NCBI GenBank assembly: GCA_903827245.1
Contig: CAIKHO010000009.1
Span: forward strand, 1 to 44,435
DNA from: an uncultured Opitutia bacterium
GTDB lineage: Bacteria > Verrucomicrobiota > Verrucomicrobiia > Opitutales > Opitutaceae
DNA: 44,435 nt
Direction of reading: 5' to 3'
How positions within the stretch are numbered: the first letter of the stretch is position 1; every line of letters begins with the position of its first letter. The position numbers and the translations under genes are program-made. Below, one piece after another: positions 1,777 through 33,984 of this stretch. The notes beneath the pieces are model-generated. The model did not search any database. It worked only from the letters and a program-made list of their open reading frames with translations, and was not told the DNA's origin.

Positions 1777-1838
1777 CTTTCCGAGGTCTTAAATCGCGGT
1801 TGCGCGCCTTCCGTCCTCACCTACCGTTGTCGCCAAAC

Positions 1839-9027: not shown

Positions 9028-9154
9028 GGCAGGCCGCGGTGGCTCACCCGGGCAGTAAAGCGATCGGCCGCGAGCGAGGCCGGCCAATTCGTCCGAATTG
9101 GCGTCGGCGGCCACCTTGCATGGCATCATTCATAAACCCAACGGGACGCTGGCA

Positions 9155-16269: not shown

Positions 16270-16884
16270 CTAGTCCAGCACGAGTGCAATCTGCACGCCC
16301 GGGCCGTGCACCCCCTCGATCAGGATGCCCTCGACATCGGCGGTCTTCGAGGGACCCGTGCACCAGATGATGTTCGGGTCGTCGCCCAGGGCGGCAATCG
16401 CCTGCGGCAGGTCGACGAAAAGTTCGGCCCGCGAAAACACCGCCACGTGCACCCACGGCGTGAGGGCCGCGAGGCGGTGCGAGGTCGAACGGTCCTTCAG
16501 GATGACCGTGCCCAATTCCGCGATGCCGCCGGCCGCGCGGGTAATGCCAAAGGCGTAGTCGTCGACCCGCGTGCGGTCGTACACCGTCTCGACCTCGAAC
16601 TCCGGGCCGAAATGCGGCGCGAGCCGGGGCCAGAGCGCGGGGTCGCAGTAGCCGTGCAGCCATTTCCCTTCGCGCAGCTGTTTCACCAGCGCGGGAATGT
16701 CGGTGAGCGCCGTTCCGTTCACGCCGCGCAGGCGGTCGGCGAACACCGCGAGCGGGTCACGGTTGGCCAGCAGCTGCCGGAGCACGGCGATCTCGGTGTC
16801 GTAGGCGGGCAGCGCGGCCCGCTCGGTCAGCGGCGCGAGCGCGGAGCGCACGCGGCCGAGGATGGCTTCACGGTCGTCACTCAT
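16270..16884 (-). CDS. lutC: Lactate utilization protein C (LUD domain)
   Basis: A 204-residue LUD-domain protein and third subunit of the LutABC L-lactate oxidation complex, which converts L-lactate to pyruvate. Family features include a helical N-terminus, AFGITRAAGGIAELGT and HVAVFSRAELFVDL. Its ATG overlaps the lutB stop (16881-16884, ATGA). The precise catalytic role of LutC is not settled in the family. Its presence next to a lactate-producing sugar pathway supports the assignment. Confidence 0.9.
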   Translation of the reverse strand: MSDDREAILGRVRSALAPLTERAALPAYDTEIAVLRQLLANRDPLAVFADRLRGVNGTALTDIPALVKQLREGKWLHGYCDPALWPRLAPHFGPEFEVETVYDRTRVDDYAFGITRAAGGIAELGTVILKDRSTSHRLAALTPWVHVAVFSRAELFVDLPQAIAALGDDPNIIWCTGPSKTADVEGILIEGVHGPGVQIALVLD

Positions 16885-18272
16885 GTCTTGGGCGGGCGGT
16901 TATGCAGCCATTTGCGGAATTCGCCCCCGCGCCACGGCGGCAGGGTGCGCTTGGCCTCCCAGGCCCGGAGCGCGGGCACGGGCACCAGCTTCGTCGGCAG
17001 GTAATTCATGAGCCGGCCGCCGATCAGCGAGGCCTTCCAGGCCAGTGGCTGTGACGCCAGCAGGGCCCACGCGCCCATCGGCGGCGTGCCGGGGGACGAC
17101 AGGCCCTCCTGCTTGCCCTTGTCGCGAAGGCGCAGCAGCAGGTCGGGAATGGGAATGTTGACCGGGCAGACTTCCTGGCACGCGCCGCAGAGGCTCGAGG
17201 CCTTCGGCAGGTCCGCCTTTTCCTTGAAACGGTCGCCCATCAGCAGCGGCGACAGCACCGCCCCGACCGGGCCCGGGTACACGCTGCGATAGGCATGGCC
17301 GCTTGCCTGGCGGTAAACGGGGCAGACATTGAGGCACGCGCCGCAGCGGATGCAACGGAGGATGTCACGGCAGTCGCTCGCGAGCACTTCCGTGCGGCCG
17401 TTGTCGACGAGGATGACATGCATCTCCTCGGGGCCGTCGGGCTGGGTCGCGGACTTCGGCCCGCTGATGAACTCGGTGTAGACCGTGAGGTCCTGCGCGG
17501 TGCCGCTGCGTGCGAGCAGGTTCAGGAGCAGCGCGAGGTCGCGATCGCGCGGCACGATCTTCTCGATGCCGACCATCGCGATGTGGCACTTCGTGGCGGC
17601 GAGGCAAAAGCGGGAGTTGCCCTCGTTCGTCACGAGCACGAGGCGTCCGCTCTCGGCGGAAATGAAGTTGCCGCCCGTGAGGCCGACATCGGCCTCAAGG
17701 TACTTGTGGCGGAGGAACTGCCGCGCGCGGCGGGTGATCGTCTGCGGGTCGTCGTTGTAGGCCCCGAGGCCGTTCTTCTCGAAAGAGGTCGCGATCTCGC
17801 GGCGATTCTTGTGGATGATCGGCTTGACGATGTGCGAGGGGTGGTCGTGGTCGATCTGGACGATGAACTCGCCGAGGTCGGTCTCGAGCGCCTCCATCCC
17901 GTGCTTCTCGAGGAAATGCGCCAACTCGGTCTCCTCGCTGACCATGGTCTTGGCCTTGACCATCTTCGTCGCCCCGCGCGCCCGCATGATCTTCAGCACG
18001 GTTTCGTTGGCGGCGTCGGCGGTCGCGGCCCAATGGACGATCACGCCATTCGCCTTCAGCTTCGCCTCCACGGCGGGCAGGTAGGTGTCGAGGTTCTCGA
18101 TGACGTGCTGCTTCACCTGGCCGGCCAGCACCCGGAGGCGGTTCGGGTCGGGATACTCGTCGAACAGCAGCTTGGTGCGCTTCTCGTGGCCCTTCTTCGA
18201 GCCGTCATAGACCGCAGCCCGCGTGTCGGCGCGGAGCTCGGCGGCAAACTGGTCGATCTGTTGAAACTTCAT
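16881..18272 (-). CDS. lutB: Lactate utilization iron-sulfur protein B
   Basis: A 463-residue iron-sulfur subunit of LutABC. It has an N-terminal LUD domain (about 60-300) and a two-cluster ferredoxin domain with C307, C310, C313, C317 (CIRCGACLNVCP) and C362, C365, C369 (CGACQEVCPVN) plus a C-terminal tail. It passes electrons from lactate towards LutA or the quinone pool. It lies downstream of lutA across a 79-base gap that contains a perfect hairpin, and is coupled to lutC. Confidence 0.93.
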   Translation of the reverse strand: MKFQQIDQFAAELRADTRAAVYDGSKKGHEKRTKLLFDEYPDPNRLRVLAGQVKQHVIENLDTYLPAVEAKLKANGVIVHWAATADAANETVLKIMRARGATKMVKAKTMVSEETELAHFLEKHGMEALETDLGEFIVQIDHDHPSHIVKPIIHKNRREIATSFEKNGLGAYNDDPQTITRRARQFLRHKYLEADVGLTGGNFISAESGRLVLVTNEGNSRFCLAATKCHIAMVGIEKIVPRDRDLALLLNLLARSGTAQDLTVYTEFISGPKSATQPDGPEEMHVILVDNGRTEVLASDCRDILRCIRCGACLNVCPVYRQASGHAYRSVYPGPVGAVLSPLLMGDRFKEKADLPKASSLCGACQEVCPVNIPIPDLLLRLRDKGKQEGLSSPGTPPMGAWALLASQPLAWKASLIGGRLMNYLPTKLVPVPALRAWEAKRTLPPWRGGEFRKWLHNRPPKT

Positions 18273-18351: not shown

Positions 18352-19119
18352 TCAGATCAGCCCCCCGTTTTTCAAGGCGTCGCGCAGCACCTGGGCGAGG
18401 TGCATGTTCTTGAGCGGCTGCCCTTCCTTCTCGGCCAGCCCTCCCATGTGCATGAGGCAGCTCATGTCGCCCGACACGAGGATGTCCGGCTTCGCCGCGC
18501 GCACGTGATCGAGCTTCAGGTTGCCCATGGCGGTGGAGATGTTCGGGAACGACACGGAGAACGTGCCGCCGAAGCCGCAGCACTGTTCGCCCTCGCCGAA
18601 TTCGACGACCTTCAGCCCGGCGATCGAGGCGAACAGGGTGGAGGCGGCCGCGCTGCTCGCCGTGCCCCGCGTATGGCACGAGCGGTGGAAAGCGATGGTC
18701 GAGTCGAACCGGCCCGGCCAGGTCTTCACGCCGAGGCCATTGACGATGAAGTCGCCCAGCTCCCAGGCACGTTTGCCGAGGGACTCGACCGCAGGGAGAT
18801 CAGGCTCCTTTTCAAATTCCAGCGGTGCGCCGTGGAACAGCATCGCCGCGCAGGAGCCGGAGGGGACGATCACCGGCTCGTCGCCGGCAAAGGTCTTCAC
18901 GGTGTGGCGCACGACCTTGCGCGACGCCGGCCAGTCGCCACCGTTGAAGGCCGGCTGGCCGCAGCAGGTCTGGGCCTCCGGAAAGCCGACGGTGCAGCCG
19001 AGGTGCTCCAGCACCTGGACGGTGGCCTTGGCCACGTCGTCGTAAAAGGCGTCGCAAAGGCAGGTCGCCATGAGCTGTACGCGCCGGCCGGTGAGGGGAA
19101 GTCGCTCGGTGTTGAGCAT
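18352..19119 (-). CDS. lutA: Lactate utilization protein A (CCG domain)
   Basis: A 255-residue protein with two cysteine-rich CCG (DUF224) modules, as in heterodisulfide reductase HdrB and GlpC. The motifs are TCCGQPAFNGGDWP and QCCGFGGTFSV with supporting SGSCAAM and HRSCHTRG. It is a redox subunit of the LutABC complex. It is the first gene of lutABC and divergent from rhaB with 117 bases between starts, so the two sugar/lactate units may share control sequences. Confidence 0.92.
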   Translation of the reverse strand: MLNTERLPLTGRRVQLMATCLCDAFYDDVAKATVQVLEHLGCTVGFPEAQTCCGQPAFNGGDWPASRKVVRHTVKTFAGDEPVIVPSGSCAAMLFHGAPLEFEKEPDLPAVESLGKRAWELGDFIVNGLGVKTWPGRFDSTIAFHRSCHTRGTASSAAASTLFASIAGLKVVEFGEGEQCCGFGGTFSVSFPNISTAMGNLKLDHVRAAKPDILVSGDMSCLMHMGGLAEKEGQPLKNMHLAQVLRDALKNGGLI

Positions 19120-19236: not shown

Positions 19237-20670
19237 ATGCCCTCCACCGTTTACTCCGCCGCCATCGACCTCGGCGCAACCAGCGGCCGCGTCATCCTCG
19301 GCGCCTGGTCCAAAAACCGCCTCACCCTCACCGAGGCGCACCGTTTCCCCAACGCCTTCCGCTCCCTCGGCACCCACGACTATTGGGAGATCGGCACGCT
19401 CTGGCACGAGGTGCAGACCGGCCTGCGCAAGGCCGCTGCCGCCCTGCCGCGCGGCGCGCGGCTCGCCTCCGTCGGTGTCGACACCTGGGGCGTGGACTAC
19501 GCACTGGTCAATGACACCGGCCGGCTGGTCTTTCCGGTGCACGCCTACCGGGACGCCCGCACCCAGCCGGGCCTCAAGCACCTCGCCAACACCCGCGCCG
19601 CGCTCGAGCGCATCTACGCGGCCACCGGCATCCCGAATGTTTTCTACAACACCAGCCTGCAGCTCGAGGAGGTCGTGGCCCACTGCCCGGCCGTCGCCGA
19701 CCTCGCCACCCGCTGCCTTTTCCTGCCGGACTACCTGAATTTCCTCCTCTCCGGCCGGATGGAGAACGAGCTCACCGTCGCCAGCACGTCGCAGCTGCTC
19801 GATGTGCACACAACCGACTGGTCACGCCCGACCCTCGATCACTTCCACCTGCCGCCGCAGTGGTTCACGAAGCCCGTCCTCACCGGCACCAAGCTGGGCC
19901 GCGTGCGCGGCCTGCCCGAGCTCGCCGGCACGCAGGTGATCGTGGTGCCCGGCCACGACACCGCGTGCGCCTACGATGCGATGCCGGCGTCGCCCGACGG
20001 CACCGACCTGTACATCAGCTCCGGCACCTGGTCGCTCGTCGGGTTTGAAAGCGACAAACCCCTGCTCGGACCCGAGGCGCTTGCCGCCCGCATCGCCAAC
20101 GAACGCATCGGCGACGGCCGCTACCGGCCGCTCACGAATGTGATCGGCCTCTGGATGCTCGAGGGCCTCATGAAGGATTTCAGCGCGCGTCCGCAGAGCG
20201 ACCGTGAATGGGCTGCGCTCATCGCCGCCGCCGAGAAGCTGCCGGCGGCCAAGGCCCCGCTCGACATGGCCGACCCGGCTTTTGCCAACCCTCCGTCGAT
20301 GAAGGCCGCGGTCGACGCCCAGTTGAAAAAACGAAAGCTCCCCGCGCCCAAAAATCTCGCGGCCTATACCCGTCTGGTCTGCGACTCGCTGGGCCACGGC
20401 CACGCCGGCGCGATGCGGGCGTTCGAGCGCATGTCCGGGCGCACGTTCCAGCGTATCCTCATGGTTGGCGGCGGCTCGAAGAACCGCCTCCTCTGCCAGG
20501 CCACGGCGGACGCCGCCGGCATCCCGGTCGTATCGTTCAACCTCGAGGGCACCGCCGTGGGCAACCTCGCCCGCCAGCTCATTGCCCTCGGCGCGGTGAA
20601 GGATCTCGCGACCTTCCGCTCCCACCTGGGCGCGACCCTGCAGCAGAAAATCTATACCCCGCGTTCGTAG
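19237..20670 (+). CDS. rhaB: Rhamnulokinase (FGGY family)
   Basis: A 477-residue FGGY carbohydrate kinase that phosphorylates L-rhamnulose to L-rhamnulose 1-phosphate with ATP. The N-terminal phosphate motif is AIDLGATSGRVILG; RhaB-like stretches are GVDTWGVDYALV, GHDTACAYDAMP, YISSGTWSLVG and MVGGGSKNRLLCQATAD. Fuculokinase activity is a possible alternative, but DLGATSGR and the SGTWSLVG region fit RhaB. Its product feeds RhaEW and possibly the microcompartment aldolase. Its TAG stop is part of a repeat fragment that begins GTAGCAGCCGAGGT. The isomerase RhaA and a transporter are not in the window. Confidence 0.92.
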   Translation: MPSTVYSAAIDLGATSGRVILGAWSKNRLTLTEAHRFPNAFRSLGTHDYWEIGTLWHEVQTGLRKAAAALPRGARLASVGVDTWGVDYALVNDTGRLVFPVHAYRDARTQPGLKHLANTRAALERIYAATGIPNVFYNTSLQLEEVVAHCPAVADLATRCLFLPDYLNFLLSGRMENELTVASTSQLLDVHTTDWSRPTLDHFHLPPQWFTKPVLTGTKLGRVRGLPELAGTQVIVVPGHDTACAYDAMPASPDGTDLYISSGTWSLVGFESDKPLLGPEALAARIANERIGDGRYRPLTNVIGLWMLEGLMKDFSARPQSDREWAALIAAAEKLPAAKAPLDMADPAFANPPSMKAAVDAQLKKRKLPAPKNLAAYTRLVCDSLGHGHAGAMRAFERMSGRTFQRILMVGGGSKNRLLCQATADAAGIPVVSFNLEGTAVGNLARQLIALGAVKDLATFRSHLGATLQQKIYTPRS

Positions 20671-21892: not shown

Positions 21893-24085
21893 TCAGCGCA
21901 GGAAGGCGTCGTGCAGGCCGCCGTCGACGGCGAGGACCTGGCCGCAGGTCTTGCTGAGGCGGTCGCTCACGAGGACAAAGTACGCCTCGGCCTGGTCGGC
22001 GGGCGTGATCGGCGACTTCGTCAGCGTGCGGTCGGCATAGAACTGCGCGAGCTTGTTCACCAGCGAAGCCGTCTCCTCCTTCTCGGTGTAGGGGATGTTG
22101 TATTTCGCCAGCGAACCGATGACGCGGTCGCGCGGGAACATCGCGCTGCCGTGGACCACCGTGGCGGGCGCGACGCCGTTGACGCGGATGAGCGGGGCGA
22201 GCTCGATCGCCATTTCGCCCACGAGGTGGTTGGCCGCAGCCTTGGAGGCGTCGTACGCCATGGAGCCTTTTTTCGCCACCGTCGCATTCGCCGAGGTGGT
22301 GAGGACGTAGGTGCCCTTGAGGCCCTGCTCGCGCCAGGTCCTGGCCGCCTCGTCGCCGACGAGGTAACCGCCGGTGACGTTGATCGCAAAGGTGAGCGCC
22401 CACTTGTCGTCCGGGATGTGACCGGTCGTGTCGGTCGGCACGAAGATGCCGGCGGTGACGCAGATCGAGTCAAAGCCGCCATAGGCCAGGGCGACGTCGT
22501 CGAGCATGCGCCGGATGCTGGCACGGTCGGTGATGTTGGCGGCGAGCCCGAGCGCCGGGCCGCAGGCGGACAGGCCGGTGCCAGCCACGCCGATGCCGAC
22601 ACCATATTTGTCGGTGATTTCCTTGGCAGTGGCCTTAGCCGCGGCCTCGTTGAGATCGACGCACACGAGGTGAGCGCCCTCCTTCACCAGCCGGTGGGCC
22701 GTTTCCTTGCCGATGCCCGAGCCAGCGCCGATCACGATGACGACCTGGCGCGCGAGCTCCTTCTCGGCCGGCATGCGCTTGAGCTTCGCCTCCTCCAGCA
22801 GCCAGTACTCGATGTCGAAGGCCTCCTGCTGCGGGAGCGCGATGTACTTGTCGATGGCCTCGGCGCCGCGCATGACCTCGACGGCGCAGTTGTAGAACTC
22901 GGCGGTGACGCGCGACTCGGACTTGTCCTTGCCCCAGGCGATCATGCCGAGGCCGGGGATGAGCACGACCGTCGGGTTCGGGTCGCGCATCGCGGGCGAG
23001 TTTGGGTGTTTGCACTTGGCGTAGTAGTCCGCGTAGTCCTTGCGGTAGGCCTTGAGGCCGGCGGCCAGTTTCTTCTTCAGCGCCGCGGCATCCTCGGACT
23101 GCGGATTCCATTCGACGTAGAGCGGCTTGATCTTGGTGCGGAGGAAATGGTCGGGGCACGAGGTGCCGAGCTCGGCGAGGCGGGGGGCGTCCTTCGAGTT
23201 CACGAAGCGCAGGATCTTCTCGTCGTCCTGCACGGTGCCGATGAAGCGCTTCTGCTGGGAAACCTGGCCGCGCAGCCACGGAAGGATCGCGGCGAGGGCG
23301 GCGCGGCGCTCGGTGGGGGCGAGCGTCTGGTATTTTGCCCCGCCGAAGGCCGCGGCGTCGCCGCCCTTCGCGGCGTACTTCTCCTCGATGTAGGCGGAGG
23401 CCCGCTCGATGAAGTCGAGCGTGGCAGCGTAGCACTCCTTTTCATCGTCCGCCCACGAGATGAAACCATGCTGGCCCATCATGATGGCGCGGATCTTCGG
23501 GTTCTTTTTCTCGATCTTCTCCATGGCGAGCCCGAGCTCGAAGCCCGGCCGCATCCACGGCACGTAGGCCATCTCGCCACCGAAGATCTGCTTCGTGAGC
23601 TTTTCGCAGTTGGCCGACGCCGCGATCGCGATGATCGCGTTCGGGTGCATGTGGTCGACGTGCTTGCCGGTGAGAAACGAGTGGAGCGGCGTGTCGATCG
23701 AGGAGGCGCGAGGATTGAGGTTGAACGTGGTGTGGAAATACATGCCCACCATGTCGTCCTCGGCCGGGGACTTCAGGCCCTTGTCCTTGCGCGAAGCGTA
23801 GAGCTTCTGGAGGGCAAGGAGCTTGTCCTGGTAGAGCGACGAAAAGTTTTCGCGCAGGCTCGTGCGCAGGTCGCCGCCGGAGCCCTTGACCCACAGGACC
23901 TCGGTCTTCTCGCCGGTGAGCGGATCCTTCTCGACGATCTTCGCCGATGTATTGCCGCCGCCGGTGTTGGTGATGCGCTGGTCGCTGCCGAGCAGATTGG
24001 AGCGGTAGATGAGCCGGGCGACCGGGTCGAGCGACTTGGCCTTGGCGTCATCCCAGAGGAAATTTACGTAGCGGTAGGTTTTCAT
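21893..24085 (-). CDS. rhaEW: Bifunctional rhamnulose-1-phosphate aldolase/lactaldehyde dehydrogenase
   Basis: A 730-residue fusion. Residues 1 to about 430 are a class II (zinc) aldolase domain: TGGGNTSAKI, H145 and H147 in HVDHMHPNA, and H206 in GQHGF. Residues about 445-730 are a short-chain dehydrogenase with GAGSGIG at 453-459 and the catalytic Y611/K615 in YDASK. It cleaves rhamnulose 1-phosphate to DHAP and L-lactaldehyde and oxidises the aldehyde to L-lactate with NAD. No targeting helix is obvious at either end, so it is probably cytosolic. Its lactate would be the substrate of LutABC. It lies downstream of the microcompartment genes, separated by a quinone oxidoreductase gene. Confidence 0.93.
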   Translation of the reverse strand: MKTYRYVNFLWDDAKAKSLDPVARLIYRSNLLGSDQRITNTGGGNTSAKIVEKDPLTGEKTEVLWVKGSGGDLRTSLRENFSSLYQDKLLALQKLYASRKDKGLKSPAEDDMVGMYFHTTFNLNPRASSIDTPLHSFLTGKHVDHMHPNAIIAIAASANCEKLTKQIFGGEMAYVPWMRPGFELGLAMEKIEKKNPKIRAIMMGQHGFISWADDEKECYAATLDFIERASAYIEEKYAAKGGDAAAFGGAKYQTLAPTERRAALAAILPWLRGQVSQQKRFIGTVQDDEKILRFVNSKDAPRLAELGTSCPDHFLRTKIKPLYVEWNPQSEDAAALKKKLAAGLKAYRKDYADYYAKCKHPNSPAMRDPNPTVVLIPGLGMIAWGKDKSESRVTAEFYNCAVEVMRGAEAIDKYIALPQQEAFDIEYWLLEEAKLKRMPAEKELARQVVIVIGAGSGIGKETAHRLVKEGAHLVCVDLNEAAAKATAKEITDKYGVGIGVAGTGLSACGPALGLAANITDRASIRRMLDDVALAYGGFDSICVTAGIFVPTDTTGHIPDDKWALTFAINVTGGYLVGDEAARTWREQGLKGTYVLTTSANATVAKKGSMAYDASKAAANHLVGEMAIELAPLIRVNGVAPATVVHGSAMFPRDRVIGSLAKYNIPYTEKEETASLVNKLAQFYADRTLTKSPITPADQAEAYFVLVSDRLSKTCGQVLAVDGGLHDAFLR

Positions 24086-24184: not shown

Positions 24185-25153
24185 TCAGGGCAGCAGTAGC
24201 ACCTTGCCGGTCGTGGCGCGGCCCTCGAGGGCGCGGTGCGCATCAGCCGCCGCGGAGAGCGGAAAGGTGGCCCCGATGCGGACGCGCAGTCCGCCCGTCC
24301 CCACCCACCGGAAGAGTTCGCCCGCGCGCGCCTGCAGCTCCGCCGCGGTCGCGGCGTAATGGTTCAGCGTAGGACGCGTGAAATAGAGCGAGCCCTTCTG
24401 CATCAGGAGCAGCGGGGCGAATGGCGGCACCGGGCCGCTCGAGTTGCCGTAGGAAACCAACATCCCGCGCGGCCGGAGGCTGTCGAGGCTGCCGGTAAAG
24501 GTGTCCTTGCCCACCGCGTCGTAGACCACGTCCACGCCGCGACCGCCGGTGAATTGCCGCGCGGCGGTGCTGAAATTGTCGCGGGTATAAATACAAACCT
24601 CGTCCGCCCCGGCTTCACGCGCGAGCCGCGCCTTTTCGTCGGTACCCACAGTTGCGAGCACGCGAGCCCCGCGGCGTTTCGCGATCTGCACCAGCAGCAG
24701 CCCGACGCCACCCGCCGCCGCGTGTACCAGCGCCGTGTCGCCCGGCTTCAAGGGAAAGGTATCACAGGCGAGGTAATGCGCGGTCATGCCCTGCAGCAGC
24801 AAGGCCGCGGCGATGCGGGACTCCACGCCGTCCGGCACGCGCACAAGTTGGACGGCAGAAACGAGTGCCTCCGTCGCATAGGCTCCCGCAACCCTGGCCG
24901 ACGCCACCTGGTCGCCGACCCGGAATTCGGTCACGCCCGAACCCACCTCAGTGATGACCCCGGCAGCCTCCGCGCCCAGGGTATACGGCAGCGTCACAGG
25001 ATAGAGCCCGCTACGCTGATAGGTATCGATGAAGTTTATGCCCGCCGCCTCGACCCGCAGGCGGACCTCACCGGCGCCTGGCACCGGCAGCGGCACCTCG
25101 TCCACGCGCAGTTTTTCCGGCCCGCCCGTCTCATGGATGCGAATCGCCTGCAT
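24185..25153 (-). CDS. Zinc-free quinone oxidoreductase (MDR family)
   Basis: A 322-residue medium-chain reductase of the QorA type that reduces quinones or activated alkenes with NADPH. It has an N-terminal GroES-like domain (VRLRVEAAGINFIDTYQRSG) and a Rossmann domain with HAAAGGVGLLLVQIAKRRG. The structural and catalytic zinc ligands of alcohol dehydrogenases are missing, as expected. It sits between the malate dehydrogenase-like gene and rhaEW, but with a repeat upstream, so membership in the sugar operon is uncertain. Confidence 0.88.
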   Translation of the reverse strand: MQAIRIHETGGPEKLRVDEVPLPVPGAGEVRLRVEAAGINFIDTYQRSGLYPVTLPYTLGAEAAGVITEVGSGVTEFRVGDQVASARVAGAYATEALVSAVQLVRVPDGVESRIAAALLLQGMTAHYLACDTFPLKPGDTALVHAAAGGVGLLLVQIAKRRGARVLATVGTDEKARLAREAGADEVCIYTRDNFSTAARQFTGGRGVDVVYDAVGKDTFTGSLDSLRPRGMLVSYGNSSGPVPPFAPLLLMQKGSLYFTRPTLNHYAATAAELQARAGELFRWVGTGGLRVRIGATFPLSAAADAHRALEGRATTGKVLLLP

Positions 25154-25427: not shown

Positions 25428-26360
25428 TCACCCCGCCTTGACCACCTTGGCGTAGGTCTCCTGCAGCGCGCGGGCGGAGGATTGCAGGGCCTGCGCCTCC
25501 TTTGGCCATAGTTCCACTTCGACGTGGGCGAGTGCGCCGGCGCGACCGACGATCGTGGGGACGCTGATCGCGACGTTTTTCAGGCCGTAGGCGCCCTGCT
25601 GGACAGTGGAAACGGGGAGGACCTGCTTGCGGTCGAGCACGATGGCGTGGACGACCTCGGCGATGGTGAGGCCGACGGCCCAGCCGGCGCCGCCCTTGCG
25701 GCGGATGACCTCGGCGCCGCTGCCCTTGGTGCGTTCGAAAATCTGGGACTGGAAGGTCGGTGTGCAGCCGGCAACTTTCACCAGCGGCAGGCCGGCGTAG
25801 GCGGCGGACGACCACACGGGGAACATCGTGTCGCCGTGTTCGCCCAGGATAAGCGCGGTCACCTGCGTCGGAGCGAGTTTGAGCTCCTGCGCAATCAGTG
25901 AGCGGAAGCGGGCGGTGTCGAGCATCGTGCCGAGGCCGAGCACCTGTTGCCACGGTAGATTGAGCTTCGCGGCGGCGAGCTGCGTGAGGATGTCGACGGG
26001 ATTGGACACCACGAACACGAGTGCGTCCTTCTTCAGGCCGGCGGCCTTGATGCTGTCGAGGATGCCGGCGAAGAGCGAAACGTTGCGGTTGATCAGGTCG
26101 AGGCGCGACTCGTCGGGCTTGCGGCGCAGGCCGGCGGTGATGACGAAGATGTCGCTGTCCTTGGCCCGCGCGTAATCGCCGGCATAGATGCGCGCGCCGC
26201 CGACCGCAGAGCTGCCGTGCATGAGGTCGAGCGCCTCGCCCTCGGCGAGGTCGGCGTTCGCATCGAGGATCTGGATTTCAGCGACGAGGCCCGCGCACTG
26301 GAGGGCGAACGCCGCGTTGGAACCGACGCGGCCGCCGCCGCCGATGATGGAGACTTTCAT
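25428..26360 (-). CDS. Malate/lactate dehydrogenase, microcompartment-associated
   Basis: A 310-residue NAD-dependent 2-hydroxyacid dehydrogenase of the LDH/MDH family. It has a Rossmann motif IIGGGGRVGS, D33 choosing NAD, catalytic R86, D148, R151 and H175 (GEHGD). The position that decides substrate is R80 in AGLRRKP; arginine here is typical of malate dehydrogenases, glutamine of lactate dehydrogenases. Homologues are found in this compartment type and have been suggested to recycle NADH; whether it uses oxaloacetate, pyruvate or another carbonyl is unclear. No targeting helix is obvious. It is probably the last gene of the shell operon, 75 bases after the aldolase. Confidence 0.88.
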   Translation of the reverse strand: MKVSIIGGGGRVGSNAAFALQCAGLVAEIQILDANADLAEGEALDLMHGSSAVGGARIYAGDYARAKDSDIFVITAGLRRKPDESRLDLINRNVSLFAGILDSIKAAGLKKDALVFVVSNPVDILTQLAAAKLNLPWQQVLGLGTMLDTARFRSLIAQELKLAPTQVTALILGEHGDTMFPVWSSAAYAGLPLVKVAGCTPTFQSQIFERTKGSGAEVIRRKGGAGWAVGLTIAEVVHAIVLDRKQVLPVSTVQQGAYGLKNVAISVPTIVGRAGALAHVEVELWPKEAQALQSSARALQETYAKVVKAG

Positions 26361-26435: not shown

Positions 26436-27512
26436 CTACTTGACGCCGAGTTGTTTCAGGATCATCCCGGCGATCTGCTGGACGACGGCCTCGACCTGCG
26501 GGTCGGCCGCGGGGGCGGATGAGCCGCCAGAGGGGGCGGGCTGGGTGACGCCGCGGGGGCGGAAATCGTTCGTGTCGCAGAGCTCGCACTCCTTCAGGCC
26601 GGAGCGCGGATCGGGCATGCCGAGCTTCTGGCGGAGGTCGATGAGCTCCTTCGCCTGGCCGCCGCTGAACCGGTGCAGGCCGCCGCCGAGGCCGGCGGCG
26701 ATCCAGACGGTACGGCAGTAGGAATCGATGTTCTCCATCTTCCAGTAGGCGTCCTCGACGTCCTTGCCCCAGACGATGACGCCGTGGTTCTGCATGAGCA
26801 CGGCTTGGTGCGTCTTGCCGACCTCGCCGACCTCGTCGGCGTTGGCGGGCGTGCCGGGTGTCTGGTACTTCGCGACGCCGATCTTGCCGAGGAACACCTC
26901 GGCCTCGGGGATGAGGCAGGAAGGGATGTCGACATTGGCGATGGCAAAAGCGGTCGCATGCGGCGGATGCGCGTGCACGCAGGCCTTGGCGTTCGGCTGG
27001 CGCTTCATGATGCCGAAATGCGTCTTGGCCTCGCTCGTGCGCACGCGGGCGCCGGCGAGCTGGTTGCCGTCAAGGTCGACCAGGCACATGTCCTCGGGCT
27101 TCATGAAGCCCTTGCAGATCAGCGTGGGCGTGCAGAGCGCGAGGTTGTCGCCGACGCGGATGGTGATGTTGCCGCCGTTGCCGTCGGTGTAGTCACGCTG
27201 CCAGAGGCGCCGGCCCATGTCGCAGATGCGTTCCTTCAGGACCTGCAGCGCGGGTGAGTTGAAGAACTTCTCAATCTCGGCGGGCGTCTTTGCATCGGTG
27301 CCGGGCGTCCACTTGAACTCGTAGTCGGGGATGCTGGGCGCGACGGATTTCTTGCCGCCGGACGGGGACGACGTGGCGGCCGGGCTCTTGAAGGCCGGCT
27401 TGCCGCCGCCGAAGACGTCGCGGGCGGAGGGCGTGAGGATGGCGCCGGCGGGAGGTTTTTCGCCCTTGCGGACGAGTTCCTCGGCTTCGCGGGCGGTGAT
27501 GACGTTGGGCAT
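26436..27512 (-). CDS. Class II aldolase with targeting extensions, microcompartment core enzyme
   Basis: A 358-residue fuculose/rhamnulose-1-phosphate aldolase-like enzyme that would give DHAP and L-lactaldehyde inside the shell. The aldolase domain spans about 85-310, with zinc histidines H180 and H182 (HAHPPH) and H243 (NHGVIVWG) and E161. The C-terminus is a proline/serine/glycine/alanine linker (about 321-337) followed by an amphipathic helix PQVEAVVQQIAGMILKQLG, a typical encapsulation peptide. An N-terminal section (1-40) with ILTPSARDVFG resembles a motif seen in other microcompartment proteins. It lies between the BMC-P genes and the dehydrogenase. Confidence 0.92.
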   Translation of the reverse strand: MPNVITAREAEELVRKGEKPPAGAILTPSARDVFGGGKPAFKSPAATSSPSGGKKSVAPSIPDYEFKWTPGTDAKTPAEIEKFFNSPALQVLKERICDMGRRLWQRDYTDGNGGNITIRVGDNLALCTPTLICKGFMKPEDMCLVDLDGNQLAGARVRTSEAKTHFGIMKRQPNAKACVHAHPPHATAFAIANVDIPSCLIPEAEVFLGKIGVAKYQTPGTPANADEVGEVGKTHQAVLMQNHGVIVWGKDVEDAYWKMENIDSYCRTVWIAAGLGGGLHRFSGGQAKELIDLRQKLGMPDPRSGLKECELCDTNDFRPRGVTQPAPSGGSSAPAADPQVEAVVQQIAGMILKQLGVK

Positions 27513-27560: not shown

Positions 27561-27857
27561 CTAGGCGGGCGGAGTGTAGAAAATCTCGTCGATGATCGCG
27601 GTGTTGAACGCGTCCACCGGCGTGGGGTTGTCAAAGGGCGCCGTCGCCTCCGCGCCCTCGGTGAAGCCGATGATGTGGCCCAGGTCCGCGCCGAGGTTGT
27701 CGTAGACCACGAGACTGTTGCCCTTGGCCAGCGGCAGCATGGGGGCGCCGGCGAACTGGGCCTTGCCAAACGGCTGCACGAGCAGGAAGCGGCCGCCCTT
27801 GTAGGCGGGATCCTGCTGGGAGAGGGTGACTTTCCCGATGACGTGGCCGAGGCGCAT
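27561..27857 (-). CDS. BMC-P shell vertex protein (EutN/CcmL family), copy 3
   Basis: A 98-residue pentamer-forming shell protein that caps vertices of the compartment. The EutN/CcmL pattern is MRLGHVIGKVTLSQQDPAYK, then LLVQPF, VVYDNLGADLGHIIGFTEG and NTAIIDEIF. The start is fixed by the ATG at 27857, two bases after the previous BMC-P stop; a longer frame upstream is only antisense shadow. One of three different BMC-P genes in the operon. Confidence 0.92.
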   Translation of the reverse strand: MRLGHVIGKVTLSQQDPAYKGGRFLLVQPFGKAQFAGAPMLPLAKGNSLVVYDNLGADLGHIIGFTEGAEATAPFDNPTPVDAFNTAIIDEIFYTPPA

Positions 27858-27859
27858 GG

Positions 27860-28129
27860 TCAGGCGGTCTCCTTCTCGTCGACGATCGCGAGGATCAGGT
27901 TGCGGAGCGGCGATTTCTGGTCCTTCACGTAGTTGCGCGTGTTGGAGCCATCGGTCGAGATGAGCACGCGCTGGTGCTGGCCGGCGCTCAGCGGGTCGAC
28001 TGCAAGTACCGGTGCGCCCTCTTCCCGGCCCTGCTCGTCCAGCGGCTGGCAGATGACCGTGCGGCAGCCGTGCATGCTCGGATGGCACACGGTCGAGACG
28101 ATCACTCCGTCGATGCGGGCAAGGATCAT
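27860..28129 (-). CDS. BMC-P shell vertex protein (EutN/CcmL family), copy 2
   Basis: An 89-residue pentameric shell protein: MILARIDGVIVSTVCHPSMH, then TVICQPLDEQG, GAPVLAVDPLSAG and RNLILAIVDEKE. It is the most compact of the three. Two bases separate it from the next BMC-P gene and 65 purine-rich bases separate it from the aldehyde dehydrogenase stop. Confidence 0.92.
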   Translation of the reverse strand: MILARIDGVIVSTVCHPSMHGCRTVICQPLDEQGREEGAPVLAVDPLSAGQHQRVLISTDGSNTRNYVKDQKSPLRNLILAIVDEKETA

Positions 28130-28194: not shown

Positions 28195-29697
28195 TCAGTA
28201 GATGCGGAGGTTGTCGACCATCACGCAGCGGCGGGTGCGGGTGAAGGTGCCAGGGTTCGTGATGCCCTCACCGGTCGTCGTGGCGATTGAGTAGCTGAGG
28301 TAGCCCTCGCCGCCGAGGCCGAGGCCGGCGACGGACGGGCCGTTCTTGACGAAGAGCGTGGTGTCGAGCGCGCGGGCCATGATTGTCATGTGGTCGACGT
28401 TGAGCGAGTGGATGATCGCGGAGTGCTTGTAGCCGTGCTCGGACTTCTTCGCGTACTCGATCGCCTGCTCGATGCTCTTCACCCGGATGACCGGCAGCAT
28501 CGGCATCATCTGCTCCTCCATCACGAACTCGTGGTCCACGTCGGTCTCGGCGAAGAGCATCGGCGTGGCCGCGGGGGCGCTGGTGCCGGCGTGCTGGGCG
28601 AGGACGGAGGCGTCGGCGCCGACGAGCTTGCGGTTGACCGCCGCATGCGAGCAGCCGCCGGCGTCCTTGGAGAAGGTGAACGCGGCCGCGGTGAGCTTGG
28701 CGAGCTGGGCGGCGTTGAGCTGCACGGCGCCGGCGAGCTTGAGGCCGTCGATGAACTTGTCGGCGAACTGCTCGAGGACGAAGACCTGCTTCTCGCCGAT
28801 GCAGAGGAGGTTGTTGTCGTAGCCGCCGCCCTGGAGGACGTCGCGCGCGGCCTTCTTCAGGCAGCCGGTGCCGTCGACGATCACGGGCGGGTTGCCCGGG
28901 CCGGCGCAGATGGCGCGCTTGCCGGACTTCATCGCGGCGTTGACGACCGCGGGGCCGCCGGTGACGCAGAGGAGACGGACGAACTCGTTCTTCGTGAGCG
29001 CGTCGAACGACTCGAGCGTCGGCTTCTCCACGGTGCAGACGAGATTCTCAATGCCGAGCGCGGCGAAGATGGCCTCGTTGTAGGCGCGAACCGCGAGCGC
29101 GGCGGAGCGGGCGCCGCCCGGGTGCGGGTTGAAGACGACGGAATTGCCGGCGGCGACGATGTTGACGATGTTGCCGCTGAGGGTCGGGACTGAGTGCGTG
29201 ACCGGCAGGATGGCGCCGACGACGCCGAAGGGCGTGTGCTCCTCCATGGTGATGCCGTGGTCGCCGCTGAGACCGTAGGGCTTGATCCACTCGACGCCGG
29301 GCACGAGCTTAACGATCTGGAGCTTCTCGATCTTGTGCTCGAGGCGGCCGATCTTGGTCTCCTCGAACTCGAACTTGCCCCACTCGACCGCCTTGGCGGT
29401 GACCATCTCCTTGACGATCTCGATGACCTTGGCACGGCCGGCCATGCCCTTTTCCTTCAACTGATCGAAAGCGACGCTGGCAGCGGCGCACGCGTCCTTC
29501 ACGTCCTCGAACACACCGAAGCGCGGGCCCTTGTGGGCCGGGCGCGGGGCGCTGGCGGCCGGGACGGAGGATTTCGGGGCCGGAGCCGGCGTGGGCGCAG
29601 AAGCGGGCGCAGCGACCGCGCGGCCGCCGAGACCGCGCATGACCTCTTCGACCACGGCGCGCAGCGCTGACTCATCGAGCTGAAGTGGGTTGCTCAT
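28195..29697 (-). CDS. CoA-acylating aldehyde dehydrogenase, microcompartment-targeted
   Basis: A 500-residue PduP/EutE-like enzyme, expected to convert L-lactaldehyde, NAD and CoA to lactoyl-CoA. The N-terminal helix DESALRAVVEEVMRGLG (8-24) is an encapsulation peptide, followed by an alanine/proline linker to about 55. The catalytic cysteine is C299 in NNLLCIGEKQ; ICAGPGNPPV precedes it. It is the core NADH-producing enzyme of the pathway. The C-terminal TRTRRCVMVDNLRIY is well preserved in the family. It lies between BMC-P copies 1 and 2. Confidence 0.94.
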   Translation of the reverse strand: MSNPLQLDESALRAVVEEVMRGLGGRAVAAPASAPTPAPAPKSSVPAASAPRPAHKGPRFGVFEDVKDACAAASVAFDQLKEKGMAGRAKVIEIVKEMVTAKAVEWGKFEFEETKIGRLEHKIEKLQIVKLVPGVEWIKPYGLSGDHGITMEEHTPFGVVGAILPVTHSVPTLSGNIVNIVAAGNSVVFNPHPGGARSAALAVRAYNEAIFAALGIENLVCTVEKPTLESFDALTKNEFVRLLCVTGGPAVVNAAMKSGKRAICAGPGNPPVIVDGTGCLKKAARDVLQGGGYDNNLLCIGEKQVFVLEQFADKFIDGLKLAGAVQLNAAQLAKLTAAAFTFSKDAGGCSHAAVNRKLVGADASVLAQHAGTSAPAATPMLFAETDVDHEFVMEEQMMPMLPVIRVKSIEQAIEYAKKSEHGYKHSAIIHSLNVDHMTIMARALDTTLFVKNGPSVAGLGLGGEGYLSYSIATTTGEGITNPGTFTRTRRCVMVDNLRIY

Positions 29698-29784: not shown

Positions 29785-30096
29785 TCATTTCTTGGCGGGA
29801 TAGATTTTGTGGTTCAGAACGTCGACGGTATCGACCAGGCCCACGACGACGGCATCGACGGGCAGGCTTTTCATGCCGGTGGCCTGCCGGGCGGAGCTGC
29901 CCTGGCAGAACAGGACGACCTCATCCAAGCCGGCGCCGAGGGTATCGACGGCGACGATCGTGTTGGCGCCCGGCCGCAACTGCGCGGGATTGGCCTCGTC
30001 AACGAGGAGCGGACGCAGCACCAGCAGCTTGCGGCCCTTCATTGCCTCGTCCTTTTTGGACGAGACGACGGAGCCGATGACACGAGCGATGAACAT
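29785..30096 (-). CDS. BMC-P shell vertex protein (EutN/CcmL family), copy 1
   Basis: A 103-residue pentameric shell protein: MFIARVIGSVVSSKKDEAMK, then LLVLRPLLVDE, IVAVDTLGAGLDEVVLFCQG and VVVGLVDTVDV. The start at the MFIARVIG methionine matches the family; upstream in-frame codons are repeat-derived and proline-rich. It follows the third BMC-H gene. Confidence 0.92.
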   Translation of the reverse strand: MFIARVIGSVVSSKKDEAMKGRKLLVLRPLLVDEANPAQLRPGANTIVAVDTLGAGLDEVVLFCQGSSARQATGMKSLPVDAVVVGLVDTVDVLNHKIYPAKK

Positions 30097-30199
30097 GGGA
30101 GACGAGGGACGAGGGGGAGGGACGAGGACCGGATCCAAGGGCGCCGCGGAGCGGGCCCCGGAGGGCGTCGGCGAGGAACGCCCCTACGATAACGGCAGG

Positions 30200-30502
30200 T
30201 TATTTCTTGGCGGGCGCGGCGACGGGGGCCTTGGGCAGGATGATCGCGACGTCCTCGTGCGGGCGCGGGATGACCTGCACGCTGACGACTTCACCGACCG
30301 TGCGGGCGGCCTGCGCACCGGCGTCGGTGGCGGCTTTGACGGCGGCGACGTCACCGATCACCACGGCGGTGACGAGCGCGTTGCCGACCTGTTTCATGGG
30401 ACCGGCGAGGGTGACGTTGGCTGACTTCAGCATGGCGTCGACGCCGGTGACGAGCGCGGTGAGACCGCGGGTTTCGAGGAGGCCGAGGGCTTTGGAGGGC
30501 AT
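30200..30502 (-). CDS. BMC-H shell protein with a GNA pore loop
   Basis: A 100-residue hexamer-forming shell protein: [20 protein letters not shown], then [33 protein letters not shown] and VIPRPHED. The pore loop reads V-G-N-A-L where most BMC-H proteins have G-S-G. It has a short alanine/proline/lysine tail. It lies downstream of the acetate kinase gene and is one of three BMC-H genes in the operon. Confidence 0.94.
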
Positions 30503-30534: not shown

Positions 30535-31722
30535 TCAGTTGCGCGCCGCGATGCAGCGGACGGTTTCGCGGGCGACGACGAGTTCCTCGTTCGCGGGGAT
30601 CACGAAAATCTTCGCGCGCGAGCCGGCAGTGGAAATCTCGCCCTCGGCACCGCGCAGGGCATTGTTCTTCGCGGGATCGATCACGAGGCCGAGTTCCTCG
30701 AGCTGGGCGCAGAACGCGGCGCGCAGGTCGGGGTTGTTCTCGCCGATGCCGGCGGTGAACACGAGGGCGTCACAGCCGCCAAGCTCGAGCAGGAAGGCGC
30801 CGATCCAATGACGCGCCGAGTGGACCAGCACATCGAGTGCGAGCTGGGCGCGGGCGTTGCCGGTGTCGGCGGCGGCGCGGATGTCGCGCAGGTCGTTGCT
30901 GACACCGGAAAGGCCGAGCAGGCCGCTTTCCTTCGTCATCTGTCGCTCCACCTCGGCGATGGACAGGCCGAAGGTCTTCATCACGAAGGGCACCGCGGCG
31001 GAATCGAGGTCACCGACGCGGTTGTTCTGCGGGAGCCCGGACTGCGGGCTGAGGCCCATGCTGGTGCCGACCGCAACGCCGTCGCGGATGCCGGTGACGG
31101 AGCTGCTGCCCCCCAGATGGCAGGAGATGACGCGCAAGGGCCGGCCTTTGACGGATGTCGGCCCGGCCTGGTAGAGCTGACGGACGCGCTCGGCGATATC
31201 CTGGCGGCCGAGCAACTCGGCCGAGCGCTCGGCGACGAATTTGTGGCTCGCGCCATGGAAGCCGTAACGGCGCACCCCGGCCTCATGCCAAGCCTGCGGC
31301 ACAGCATAACGCGTGGCAGCCTCGGGCATCCACTGGTAGAACGCCGTCTCGAACAGCGCGACGAGCGGCACGCCGGGCAGCTTCTCGCGGAAACGCTGGA
31401 TGCCGGCGGCGTAGGGCGGGTTGTGGGCGGGAGCGATTTCCTTGAAGCCCTCGAGCGCGGCGATGACGCGCTCGTCGGCCGGCACGCAACCCGTGAGGTT
31501 CTTGCCGAGCACGGTCTTGAAACCCACGCCATGGAGATCGGCCGGCGTGCGGACGTGGCCCGCGGCCTTGAGTTCCGCAAGGCAGTCGTCGATCGCCTTG
31601 CCATAGTCCGTGACACGCTCGTAGCCGCCCTTCGCGAGCAACGCCGCGCCGCCGGCGCCGTCGAAACGGAACAGGCGGAACTTCAGCGAGGTCGAGCCGA
31701 GGTTGGCGACGAGGATGTTCAT
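30535..31722 (-). CDS. ackA: Acetate kinase homologue, microcompartment type
   Basis: A 395-residue ASKHA acyl-phosphate kinase. With PduL it should turn lactoyl-phosphate and ADP into lactate and ATP. Conserved parts include [28 protein letters not shown] (H156), [23 protein letters not shown] and ANEEL. By eye alignment with the Methanosarcina enzyme, the HRVVHGGE motif is GFKTVLGKN (R91 to K69) and the catalytic FDTAFH is FETAFY (D148 to E125). Such changes suggest a shifted acyl-phosphate specificity or altered rate. It lies between two BMC-H genes. No targeting helix is obvious. Confidence 0.9.
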
Positions 31723-31811: not shown

Positions 31812-32105
<294 letters not shown>

Positions 32106-32129: not shown

Positions 32130-32399
32130 TTAGAGACCGACGTTGCGGAGCAGGTCGGGGTGCGGACGCGCGATGATGTGCGAGCAGATGAGCTCGCCGA
32201 CGCGCTTGGCGGCCTCGGAGCCGGCCTCGACGGCCGCCTTGACGCTGCCGACGTCGCCTTTGACAACGACGGTCACAAGACCGCCGCCGATCTGAATCTG
32301 GCGAACGAGGGAAACGTTCGCCGCCTTGACCATGGCGTCGCTGGCTTCGACGCTGCCTACATAGCCTTTGGTTTCTACCATGCCGATGGAATCACTCAT
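32130..32399 (-). CDS. BMC-H shell protein with a GGG pore loop
   Basis: An 89-residue hexameric shell protein: SIGMVETKGYVGSVEASDAM, then ANVSLVRQIQIGGGLVTVVV, GDVGSVKAAVEAG and HIIARPHPD. It is the shortest BMC-H and first shell gene of the operon, 38 bases after pduL. No tandem BMC-T gene is present in the window. Confidence 0.95.
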   Translation of the reverse strand: MSDSIGMVETKGYVGSVEASDAMVKAANVSLVRQIQIGGGLVTVVVKGDVGSVKAAVEAGSEAAKRVGELICSHIIARPHPDLLRNVGL

Positions 32400-32437: not shown

Positions 32438-33115
32438 TTATTTCAGGAGCTCGACAGGCGTATCAGGCTGCAGCGCGCAGGCATTGCCCTCGTCGGTGTC
32501 GATGTGCACCTCGAGCTTGAAGTCGGCATGCACACGCACGAGCAGGCGGTCGAAAGTCGTCGCGCACGGGCCGCCGACCTTGAGGCGCATGAAGTCGCCG
32601 CCCTTCACGCCGTAGAACGCGGCGTCGTCCGGATGCATGTGCACATGGGGCGCGGCGCGGATCACGCCCTCCTTCATCTCGAAAAATCCGTTCGGGCCCA
32701 TCAGCATGCAGCCCGGCGTGCCGGCGATGTTGCCGGACTGGCGGATCGGGATGTCGAAGCCGAGGGCGATGGAATCGGTCAGCGCGAGCTCGATCTGGTT
32801 GAGGTCGCGGCACGGGCCGAGGATGCGGAGATTGGAAATGACCCGGCTGCGCGGCCCGATGAGCGTGACGGTCTCCTTCGCGGCAAACTGGTCTTTCTGG
32901 TACAGCCACTTCATCGGCGTGAGCTTGGCCCCCTTGCCGAAAAGCGCCTCGACCGCCTGCGGCGTGAGATGGCAGTGGCGCGCGCTGATATTCACCAGCA
33001 GCGGATTCGGCGCCTGGGCCGTGACCGGAAGATTCTTCCCGAGGCGCTGGTAAAGCGCCCGTCGCACGAGATGCTCGATCTCGACACGGTGAGGCAGGGG
33101 CGGGGGCAAAGACAT
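32438..33115 (-). CDS. pduL: PduL-type phosphate acyltransferase
   Basis: A 225-residue zinc enzyme that exchanges CoA and phosphate on the acyl group; here lactoyl-CoA to lactoyl-phosphate, returning CoA inside the shell. Zinc ligand motifs are SARHCHLT (H47, H49), PHVHMHPDDAAFYGV (H157, H159) and H204. The N-terminal helix VEIEHLVRRALYQRLG (11-26) is probably an encapsulation peptide. The start is the ATG giving MSLPPPLP; the longer frame runs into the control region. It is the first gene of the microcompartment operon and divergent from the DeoR-family regulator. Confidence 0.93.
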   Translation of the reverse strand: MSLPPPLPHRVEIEHLVRRALYQRLGKNLPVTAQAPNPLLVNISARHCHLTPQAVEALFGKGAKLTPMKWLYQKDQFAAKETVTLIGPRSRVISNLRILGPCRDLNQIELALTDSIALGFDIPIRQSGNIAGTPGCMLMGPNGFFEMKEGVIRAAPHVHMHPDDAAFYGVKGGDFMRLKVGGPCATTFDRLLVRVHADFKLEVHIDTDEGNACALQPDTPVELLK

Positions 33116-33219
33116 GGCTCGATTTGGGGAGATTCGGGCTAATTGACTCCAAAAATCTTCCAAGATGTCAAGGTAGCCGTTGCATTTTATTCCAGAATCT
33201 TCCAAGTTCTTCCACAGTG
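33116..33219. promoter_or_regulatory. Shared control region of the shell operon and its DeoR-family regulator
   Basis: 104 bases between divergent starts. AATCTTCCAAG occurs twice in the same orientation, at 33154-33164 and 33196-33206, 42 bases apart (about four helical turns), and a third partial copy TTCTTCCAC follows at 33207-33215. These are candidate operators for the adjacent DeoR-family repressor, with a loop or side-by-side binding possible. The region is AT-richer than its surroundings, as promoters should be, but I cannot place -10/-35 boxes with confidence. Confidence 0.6.
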
Positions 33220-33984
33220 ATGCACCCCGAGGAACGCCAGGCCAAAATCGAAGCGTATCTTCAAAAGGCGGAATTCGCTTCCTTGGAAGAGCTTGCACAG
33301 CAGGTGGGCGTGTCGGTCTCGACCGTCCGGCGGGATGTCGCCGCCTTGGAAACCAACAAGGTGGTTCGCCGCACGCATGGCGGCGCCCGCACGCTTCAGC
33401 CGAAGACCGATGAGTTCGTTTTTAATGTCCGCGACACCCATCAGGTCGGCGAAAAGGAAGCCATCGGCGAGGCCTGCGCCGCACTGGTCGAGCCGGGCCA
33501 GAACGTGATCATCGACAGCGGCACGACGTGCTTCCACGTCGCGAAGCGGCTCGGCGACAAGGTCGCGCAGATCATTACCAACTCCCTGCCGGTCGCGAAT
33601 TTCTTCTCCGCCTCCAACCGCCACGAGGTGCACCTCTCCGGCGGTGTCATCTACCCGCGCCTCGGCGTGCTGGTCGGGCCGCACGCGGTCGACACGTTTT
33701 CGCGCATGCACGCCGACGTCGCCATCCTCAGCGGCAGCGGGATCTCCGAGGACGGCATCTACAACTCGCACGCCCTGCTCGTGGACATCCAGCGGGCCAT
33801 GATCGGCGGGGCCGCAAAGGTGATCTTTTGCCTCGACCACACGAAGTTCGACCGGCGCTCGACGTTTTTCCTGTCGGATTTCTCGGCGGTGGACGTGGTC
33901 GTCACCGACTCGCTCGCCCCCGAACCGGTCGTGGCCGCCCTGCGCGCCAAGGGCCTCGAGGTCGTCGTGGCGCCGGCCGGGTGA
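33220..33984 (+). CDS. DeoR-family transcriptional regulator
   Basis: A 254-residue regulator. The N-terminal helix-turn-helix (about 5-60) contains SLEELAQQVGVSVSTVRRDV and RRTHGGA, a DeoR signature. The C-terminal sugar-phosphate sensor domain has DSGTT (99-103), ITNSLPVANFF, LSGGVIYPRLG and a C-terminal FLSDFSAVDVVVTD. Inducers in this family are phosphorylated sugars or trioses; here rhamnulose 1-phosphate, fuculose 1-phosphate or DHAP would fit. Probably represses the divergent shell operon. ATG at 33220 chosen, since earlier frame codons lie in the control region. Confidence 0.93.
   Translation: MHPEERQAKIEAYLQKAEFASLEELAQQVGVSVSTVRRDVAALETNKVVRRTHGGARTLQPKTDEFVFNVRDTHQVGEKEAIGEACAALVEPGQNVIIDSGTTCFHVAKRLGDKVAQIITNSLPVANFFSASNRHEVHLSGGVIYPRLGVLVGPHAVDTFSRMHADVAILSGSGISEDGIYNSHALLVDIQRAMIGGAAKVIFCLDHTKFDRRSTFFLSDFSAVDVVVTDSLAPEPVVAALRAKGLEVVVAPAG

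Follow-up and report, generated by a model that had tools for sequence, protein, structure and literature searches.

A shell-linked acetate kinase homologue with exchanged hallmark residues as a candidate lactate kinase of PVM microcompartments in Verrucomicrobiota

Introduction

Among acyl kinases, acetate kinase is the textbook case, with Arg91, Asp148 and Asn211 regarded as its hallmark residues. Another acyl-phosphate kinase, PduW, is tied to the Pdu microcompartment. The PVM organelle was first characterised in Planctomycetota. PVM loci (Erbilgin et al. 2014) are described in the accessible text of PMC4207490 and PMC8857213, and the pathway of rhamnose and fucose compartments is likewise in print (available sections of PMC8857213, PMC4207490 and PMC6620236). 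The accessible part of PMC8857213 already draws the conversion of lactyl-phosphate to lactate as the last step of the organelle. In Escherichia coli, an oxamic transcarbamylase that produces carbamoyl phosphate is encoded by allFGH, and the carbamate kinase by allK within that operon (PMC11326118, accessible part).

Here we describe a PVM locus within a 44,435-nucleotide stretch of DNA from an uncultured Opitutia bacterium, referred to as the window, whose acetate kinase homologue has exchanged these hallmarks.

Results

A PVM locus next to rhamnose and lactate genes

Judged by its gene content, the locus is that of a PVM microcompartment. On the minus strand the order of transcription is PduL, BMC-H, BMC-H, kinase, BMC-H, EutN, aldehyde dehydrogenase, EutN, EutN, class II aldolase, LDH homologue and zinc-type dehydrogenase. 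The PduL-type phosphotransacylase (32438..33298; PF06130, NF011652 over cut-off) has a long N-terminal stretch and precedes two BMC-H shell proteins (32130..32399 and 31812..32105), the kinase, a further BMC-H protein (30200..30502) and a EutN/CcmL (BMC-P) shell protein (29785..30138), all four shell proteins being recognised by profile. The aldehyde dehydrogenase (28195..29697; NF011927/PRK15398 over cut-off) is presumably of the EutE/PduP type, that is, CoA-acylating. It is followed by a second EutN/CcmL (BMC-P) protein (27860..28129, by profile) and a third (27561..27857), which has an inferred start and whose domain spans residues 78-167 of the frame 27561-28088. The class II aldolase (26436..27512; PF00596) belongs to the signature enzyme family of PVM loci; the lactate/malate dehydrogenase homologue (25428..26360) scores below the NCBIfam L-LDH cut-off, and the last gene (24185..25153) resembles zinc-type alcohol dehydrogenases/quinone reductases by profile. 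A DeoR-family regulator, also identified by profile, is transcribed divergently (33124..33984, plus strand). The BMC proteins of the PVM locus have one domain each, whereas a separate contig of the same genome (G000:C22:83181-83762) has a frame of 231 residues that carries two BMC domains (BMC-T type).

Profile searches revealed no acyl kinase in the operon besides the AckA homologue. Flanks of 5 kb or more on either side were available for 32 loci. All 32 have the aldolase, the aldehyde dehydrogenase and PduL, and 21 also have the LDH homologue.

Further genes of the window connect the locus to deoxy sugars and lactate. On the minus strand, a rhamnulose-1-phosphate aldolase/short-chain dehydrogenase fusion (21893..24085; TIGR02632 over cut-off) is accompanied by a LutA-like cysteine-rich (CCG) protein (18352..19119) and a LutC-like LUD-domain protein (16270..16884), both identified by profile, and by LutB, the iron-sulphur protein of L-lactate oxidation (16881..18272; TIGR00273, 448.2 bits against a cut-off of 444.8). 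The plus strand encodes a rhamnulokinase-like FGGY kinase (19237..20670), whose 366.7 bits are below the TIGR02627 cut-off of 527.95. Because the aldolase fusion and the LutABC-type genes are present, the window is expected to make L-lactaldehyde and to burn L-lactate. This agrees with the initial annotation, which had named lactoyl-phosphate as the acyl phosphate to be expected in the pathway. No glycyl radical enzyme was found in the genome of the window by a search whose controls matched. For B12 diol dehydratase, the same genome gave zero matches and so did the controls, which makes that search uninformative.

In the accessible part of PMC4784909, Tyr or Phe at position 77 of rPduL is proposed to confer a preference for lactyl-CoA and is ascribed to the majority of PVM PduLs. 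The PduL of the window has Gln137 at this position, as counted from the zinc ligands, and among the 79 PduL rows with a letter there, 75 have Gln and four Tyr. A nearby tyrosine (Tyr133 in the window) is present in 79 of 79 rows, and may or may not matter. About 95 residues precede the enzyme domain in the PduL frame (32438-33298, minus strand). Within this stretch VEIEHLVRRALYQRLG resembles, by eye, an encapsulation peptide, for which reason translation may in fact begin at a Met near residue 62.

The kinase has a predicted acetate kinase fold and an exchanged acyl-phosphate site

The shell-linked acetate kinase homologue, our main finding, is encoded at 30535..31722 on the minus strand and has 395 residues. 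These limits match those first annotated; in the open-frame list, the plus strand at 30535-31722 is also free of stops. The protein matches PF00871 with 317.4 bits (cut-off 22) and exceeds the TIGR00016 ackA cut-off (312.1 against 293.4 bits), and its 228.2 bits against the propionate kinase profile NF009045 are below the cut-off of 580. Its closest named records come from Opitutae/Opitutaceae and other Verrucomicrobiota. The predicted model (pLDDT 83.8) has the acetate kinase fold, with a Z score of 40.1 and an rmsd of 2.7 over 345 residues relative to 1g99. The pLDDT falls below 50 in loop 224-237, the site of Asn233 and Arg235, and we therefore make no claim about the geometry of this loop. 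The whole protein is covered by the alignment with M. thermophila acetate kinase and carries no extra encapsulation tail, from which we infer that it may act in the cytosol or at the outer face of the shell.

Alignment to the M. thermophila enzyme (1tuu), whose residue numbers are used throughout, shows that R91, L122, D148, N211 and G239 are absent and replaced by K, A, E, G and N. The two changes reported in the initial annotation hold in this alignment: Arg91 of VGHRVVHGGE is opposite a lysine, and the FDTAFH aspartate, Asp148, is a glutamate (FETAFY), LFETAFYQ being the counterpart of VFDTAFHQ. Counted from the gene start at 31722, the lysine is Lys69 (codon AAG, 31516..31518, minus strand, as are all codons given here); the glutamate is Glu125 (GAG, 31348..31350), within the FETAFY codons at 31336-31353. 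The counterparts of Asn211 and Gly239 are, by counting, Gly205 (GGC, 31108..31110) and Asn233 (AAC, 31024..31026). Beyond the changes first noted, the protein has H90F, L122A, H152Y, N211G, G212S, G239N and T240N; N7, S10, S12, K14, H123, H180, H208, R241, R285, G331 and E384 are kept.

The lysine is shorter than Arg91 and the glutamate longer than Asp148, and the charge is unchanged at both positions. In M. thermophila, Asn211 contacts the beta phosphate and bonds to Gly239; in the variants N211A, N211S, N211T, G239A and G239S, the acetate Km increases from 14 to 94-470 mM and activity drops 6- to 200-fold (PMC4390882, available text). Since Asn211 and Gly239 touch in that enzyme, the window kinase has in effect shifted the asparagine from 211 to the facing loop at 239. 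We infer that L122A empties the acyl pocket and leaves space beside the acyl group. Together, the Lys/Glu and Asn changes would re-seat an acyl phosphate that is bulkier or more polar than acetyl phosphate, an arrangement that fits lactoyl and carbamoyl phosphate alike.

Selection on the shell kinase is purifying, with dN/dS between 0.073 and 0.180 in 11 of 11 pairs with relatives. The shell-type variant is thus conserved and, as far as its sequence tells, looks functional rather than a product of drift.

Shell-linked and canonical kinases of Verrucomicrobiota differ at the same positions

We surveyed Verrucomicrobiota and obtained 113 distinct AckAs from 144 frames, repeats being dropped by shared internal stretches; the set includes the window gene and two incomplete frames. 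Shell genes adjoin 83 of them, with the nearest shell frame starting at most 383 bases from one end of the AckA frame in 83/83, and the other 30 have no adjoining shell genes. All 83 shell-linked sequences carry K91, 82 carry E148 and 82 carry A122. Position 211 is Gly in all 81 complete rows; position 239 is Asn in 74 of these and Ser in 7. At position 152, one row keeps His and the other 82 have Tyr or Phe. Read at 90/91/122/148/211/212/239/240, the string is FKAEGSNN in 72 of 83, FKAEGSSN in six, and FKAAGSNN, FKAEGSST and FKSEGSNN in one each, the remaining two being incomplete. All but the two incomplete frames, 81 of 83, retain H123, H180, H208, R241, D283, R285, G331 and E384. The signature positions stay fixed down to 48 percent identity with the window protein. 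Because all 83 sequences form one branch, they do not count as 83 independent events. The exception at position 148 is Ala (FATAFYQ) in L011 (206-1417, minus strand), the sole shell-type AckA without an acid there; it comes from one assembly and may be an error.

Of the 30 AckAs without shell genes, 28 have R91 and D148, and the other two have K/E and are of the oxamate-operon type described below. The alignment of shell-associated with housekeeping AckAs that had been proposed as a check therefore separates them, with K91 in 83/83 on one side and R91 plus D148 in the 28 canonical proteins on the other. A housekeeping AckA with the shell-type residues had been named beforehand as evidence against a dedicated kinase, and none was found among these 28. 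More than 200 canonical-like AckA matches came up in the genome survey, and residues were read in a minority of them. In eight genomes both copies were read, and in 8/8 the shell copy is K/E and the second copy R/D. Two other loci are unusual. L145 (6418-8924, plus strand) holds a tandem AckA pair; in the first member the PHOSPHATE1 motif is altered (NSGVSFVEF) and position 211 is Lys, on account of which this member is possibly an inactive partner to the second. In L143 (7873-9834, minus strand), a frame of unusual length encodes a canonical-type AckA; the stretch also has a PduL-like frame but no detected shell gene.

The genome of the window itself encodes a canonical AckA with R91, D148, N211 and G239. 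This gene and the phosphoketolase domains, about 2.5 kb apart and separated by a P-type-ATPase frame, form one group in L033 (3837-9423, minus strand; contig C74), and the proximity suggests a nearby source of acetyl phosphate. The Pta-type acyltransferase of the genome is elsewhere on C74. When all candidates were scored, a canonical AckA was kept in 8 of 31 shell-type genomes and not found in 23. In a second survey, limited to the best four candidates per genome and counting two rows of G008 as one gene, it was not found in 29 of 39. Given the 23 of 31 genomes, some use of acetate by the shell kinase is possible.

A codon pattern for FETAF[YH], run over 387 genomes, matched in 80, and a reversed control pattern also matched several. 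The 30 loci opened from these matches contained six signature AckAs and 24 non-AckA frames, several of the latter resembling, by eye, one family of frames of about 950-1000 residues. Five of the six are of shell type by their residues (shells were checked for three), and one belongs to an oxamate operon. The pattern misses G405, G056, G051, G039, G216, G418 and G203, all seven of which are found by protein search. Because members with other letters escape it, the pattern is no census. No relatives of the kinase were confirmed on viral contigs. On plasmids, 383 records have AckA homologues, and the best 40, which were listed, are at most 41 percent identical; an oxamate-operon query gave 381 matches, of which the best 25 were listed. 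Nine plasmid records were read for residues, and none has the signature.

Sister kinases occur in AllFGH operons

The full shell-type residue set recurs in three relatives without shell genes, and this sister group is the most surprising part of the analysis. All three AckA homologues lie between AllG and AllH in oxamate-type operons: L126 (genome G135; 7868-9445, minus strand), L129 (G405; 7823-8995, plus strand) and L146 (G435; 1383-2603, minus strand). AllF adjoins AllG in each, as seen for G435 in the longer stretch L207. At position 152 the three kinases have His, as opposed to the Tyr or Phe of the shell arm. G135 has a second AllF-AllG pair that lacks the signature kinase (L204).

Their position in the operon suggests that these three proteins are perhaps carbamate kinases of the acetate kinase fold. 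The carbamate kinase gene arcC gave no match in G135 and G435 and 33.6 bits against a cut-off of 358.25 in G405, the three assemblies being 94, 85 and 88 percent complete. In 14 of 14 genomes with an AllG above 330 bits adjoining AllF, arcC is over the cut-off. G307, which forms one genus with G135 and G435, has AllG and an arcC over the cut-off and gave no match for the signature kinase. Against this pattern, G079, G375 and G211 have AllG, no arcC over the cut-off and no signature kinase. These comparisons cover 20 of 28 AllG genomes, with small numbers and incomplete assemblies. Where present, arcC is on a different contig from AllG or, in G110, 58 kb away.

Because the oxamate-operon kinases carry the same set, the signature is not readable as an adaptation to lactate alone. 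What it marks is a subfamily that serves two or more pathways, not lactate per se.

The signature kinases form one branch

A tree was built by a quick method, unrooted and with SH-aLRT only, from an alignment in which twelve columns, the signature columns among them, were omitted. It places 45 shell rows and the three oxamate-operon rows on one side of a branch of length 0.55 with an SH-aLRT of 100. Within this side, the three oxamate-operon rows have a value of 100 and the 45 shell rows one of 86. All 11 outgroup rows have R91 and D148, and nine of them have Asn at 211, where Limosilactobacillus has Ala. A Nonomuraea sequence on a long, doubtful branch combines Gly211 and Ser239 with R91/D148. 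PduW (7fj7) groups with the Anoxybacillus and Limosilactobacillus AckAs, outside the signature branch. The tree and the residues support a distinct acyl kinase branch, and, on the simplest reading, the residue set had a single origin that predates the split between the two operon types.

Discussion

Proposed function and alternatives

We consider it probable that the window kinase is the acyl-phosphate kinase of the PVM microcompartment and that, as a member of a branch with a rebuilt site, it converts L-lactoyl phosphate and ADP to ATP and L-lactate. L-rhamnose, and perhaps L-fucose, would be cut to dihydroxyacetone phosphate and L-lactaldehyde, which the aldehyde dehydrogenase would convert to L-lactoyl-CoA and PduL in turn to L-lactoyl phosphate. 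The kinase would pass the phosphate of this compound to ADP, giving ATP and L-lactate, and LutABC, perhaps also the LDH homologue, would then oxidise the lactate. The rebuilt acyl-phosphate site would consist of Lys91, Glu148, the pocket opened by Leu122Ala and an asparagine moved from PHOSPHATE2 (211) to the facing LOOP3 (239). The direct basis of this proposal is gene content, linkage, shared residues, purifying selection, the predicted fold and the tree, from which substrate and direction of reaction are deduced. Lactate is the likely substrate because of the pathway, the residues alone pointing to a wider class; L-lactoyl phosphate is accordingly the likely partner on genomic grounds. Gln137 of PduL, the LDH homologue in just 21 of 32 loci, the rhamnulokinase score below its cut-off and the canonical AckA not found in 23 of 31 genomes count against the lactate explanation. 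The initial annotation had suggested a dedicated lactate kinase. Pathway, linkage and distinct residues speak for that suggestion; K91/E148 as a mark of lactate does not stand, as the three AllFGH-operon kinases share both.

A broad short-chain acyl kinase that still works well with acetyl and propionyl phosphate, to which lactoyl phosphate is merely supplied and whose residue changes are neutral or stabilising, seems to us unlikely. The sister group in another operon does show that the signature need not concern lactate, the genomes in which no canonical AckA was found (23 of 31, or 29 of 39 with the best four candidates each) would be consistent with it, and Salmonella AckA accepts formate, acetate and propionate (PMC3475010, available text). 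However, where canonical AckAs have fixed residues, this branch has different fixed residues down to 48 percent identity with the window protein, the pocket is altered by L122A, and 8 of 31 genomes keep a canonical AckA alongside; single changes at 211 and 239 moreover greatly weaken acetate binding in M. thermophila (PMC4390882, accessible part). Far less probable is an inactive or catalytically weakened paralogue with a structural or regulatory role alongside the shell, which we give very little credence. Two supposedly essential residues are changed, and R91A leaves residual activities of 0.3 and 0.6 percent in two acetate kinases (PMC6461089, accessible part), but the K and E changes preserve charge, the catalytic and nucleotide residues that were checked are kept in 81 of 81 complete rows, dN/dS is 0.07-0.18, and the operon showed no second acyl kinase. 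Class II aldolases of PVM loci could release glycolaldehyde from other sugar phosphates. The acyl phosphate would then be glycoloyl phosphate or, starting from 1,2-propanediol, propionyl phosphate, the signature being one of non-acetate acyl phosphates generally. A propionaldehyde route is discussed for fucose/rhamnose compartments (PMC6620236, in its available sections), but the RhaD fusion, the rhamnulokinase-like kinase and the LutABC-type genes within the window count against this reading, and the genome has no glycyl radical enzyme by a search with matching controls; we regard another aldehyde product as improbable.

Returning to the lactate kinase reading, a wider proposal can be attached to it tentatively, and we would sooner doubt than defend it at present: Lys91/Glu148/Gly211/Asn239 would define an overlooked non-acetyl subfamily with two arms, a PVM lactate kinase and an AllFGH carbamate kinase that replaces AllK/ArcC in some Verrucomicrobiota. 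The asparagine shift would be the solution common to both, and changes of the His152Tyr type would separate the arms. Hallmarks that are swapped jointly, under purifying selection and in two operon types, would show how the fold changes its acyl group. The kinase would also supply the last enzyme of rhamnose/fucose organelles in Verrucomicrobiota living on sugars from plants and algae. Family profiles call these kinases and housekeeping AckA alike acetate kinase, and the signature would serve as a sequence mark separating them in metagenomes.

Comparison with known systems

The changed residues and an AckA-type kinase in an oxamate operon were not met in the open-licence literature searched, which was available mostly as listings and abstracts; the accessible portions of PMC4207490 and PMC8857213 make no mention of a changed active site in the PVM acetate kinase. 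In gene kinds the locus is the same as the PVM locus of the literature, with BMC-H, EutN/BMC-P, PduL, aldehyde dehydrogenase, class II aldolase, LDH-like protein, DeoR regulator and acetate kinase. With M. thermophila AckA (1g99/1tuu) the window kinase has in common the fold, the nucleotide-site residues, H180, R241 and E384, and it differs by R91K, D148E, L122A, N211G, G212S, G239N and T240N. Klebsiella PduW (7fj7) and the window kinase both have Pro-Gln-Ser at 232-234, but PduW retains R91, D148, N211 and G239. E. coli AllK belongs to a different fold family from acetate kinase, unlike the sister kinases, which are acetate kinase homologues. Both belong to AllFGH-type operons, the sister kinases lying between AllG and AllH, and AllK being the carbamate kinase of E. 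coli allFGHK (PMC11326118 and PMC9843812, available text).
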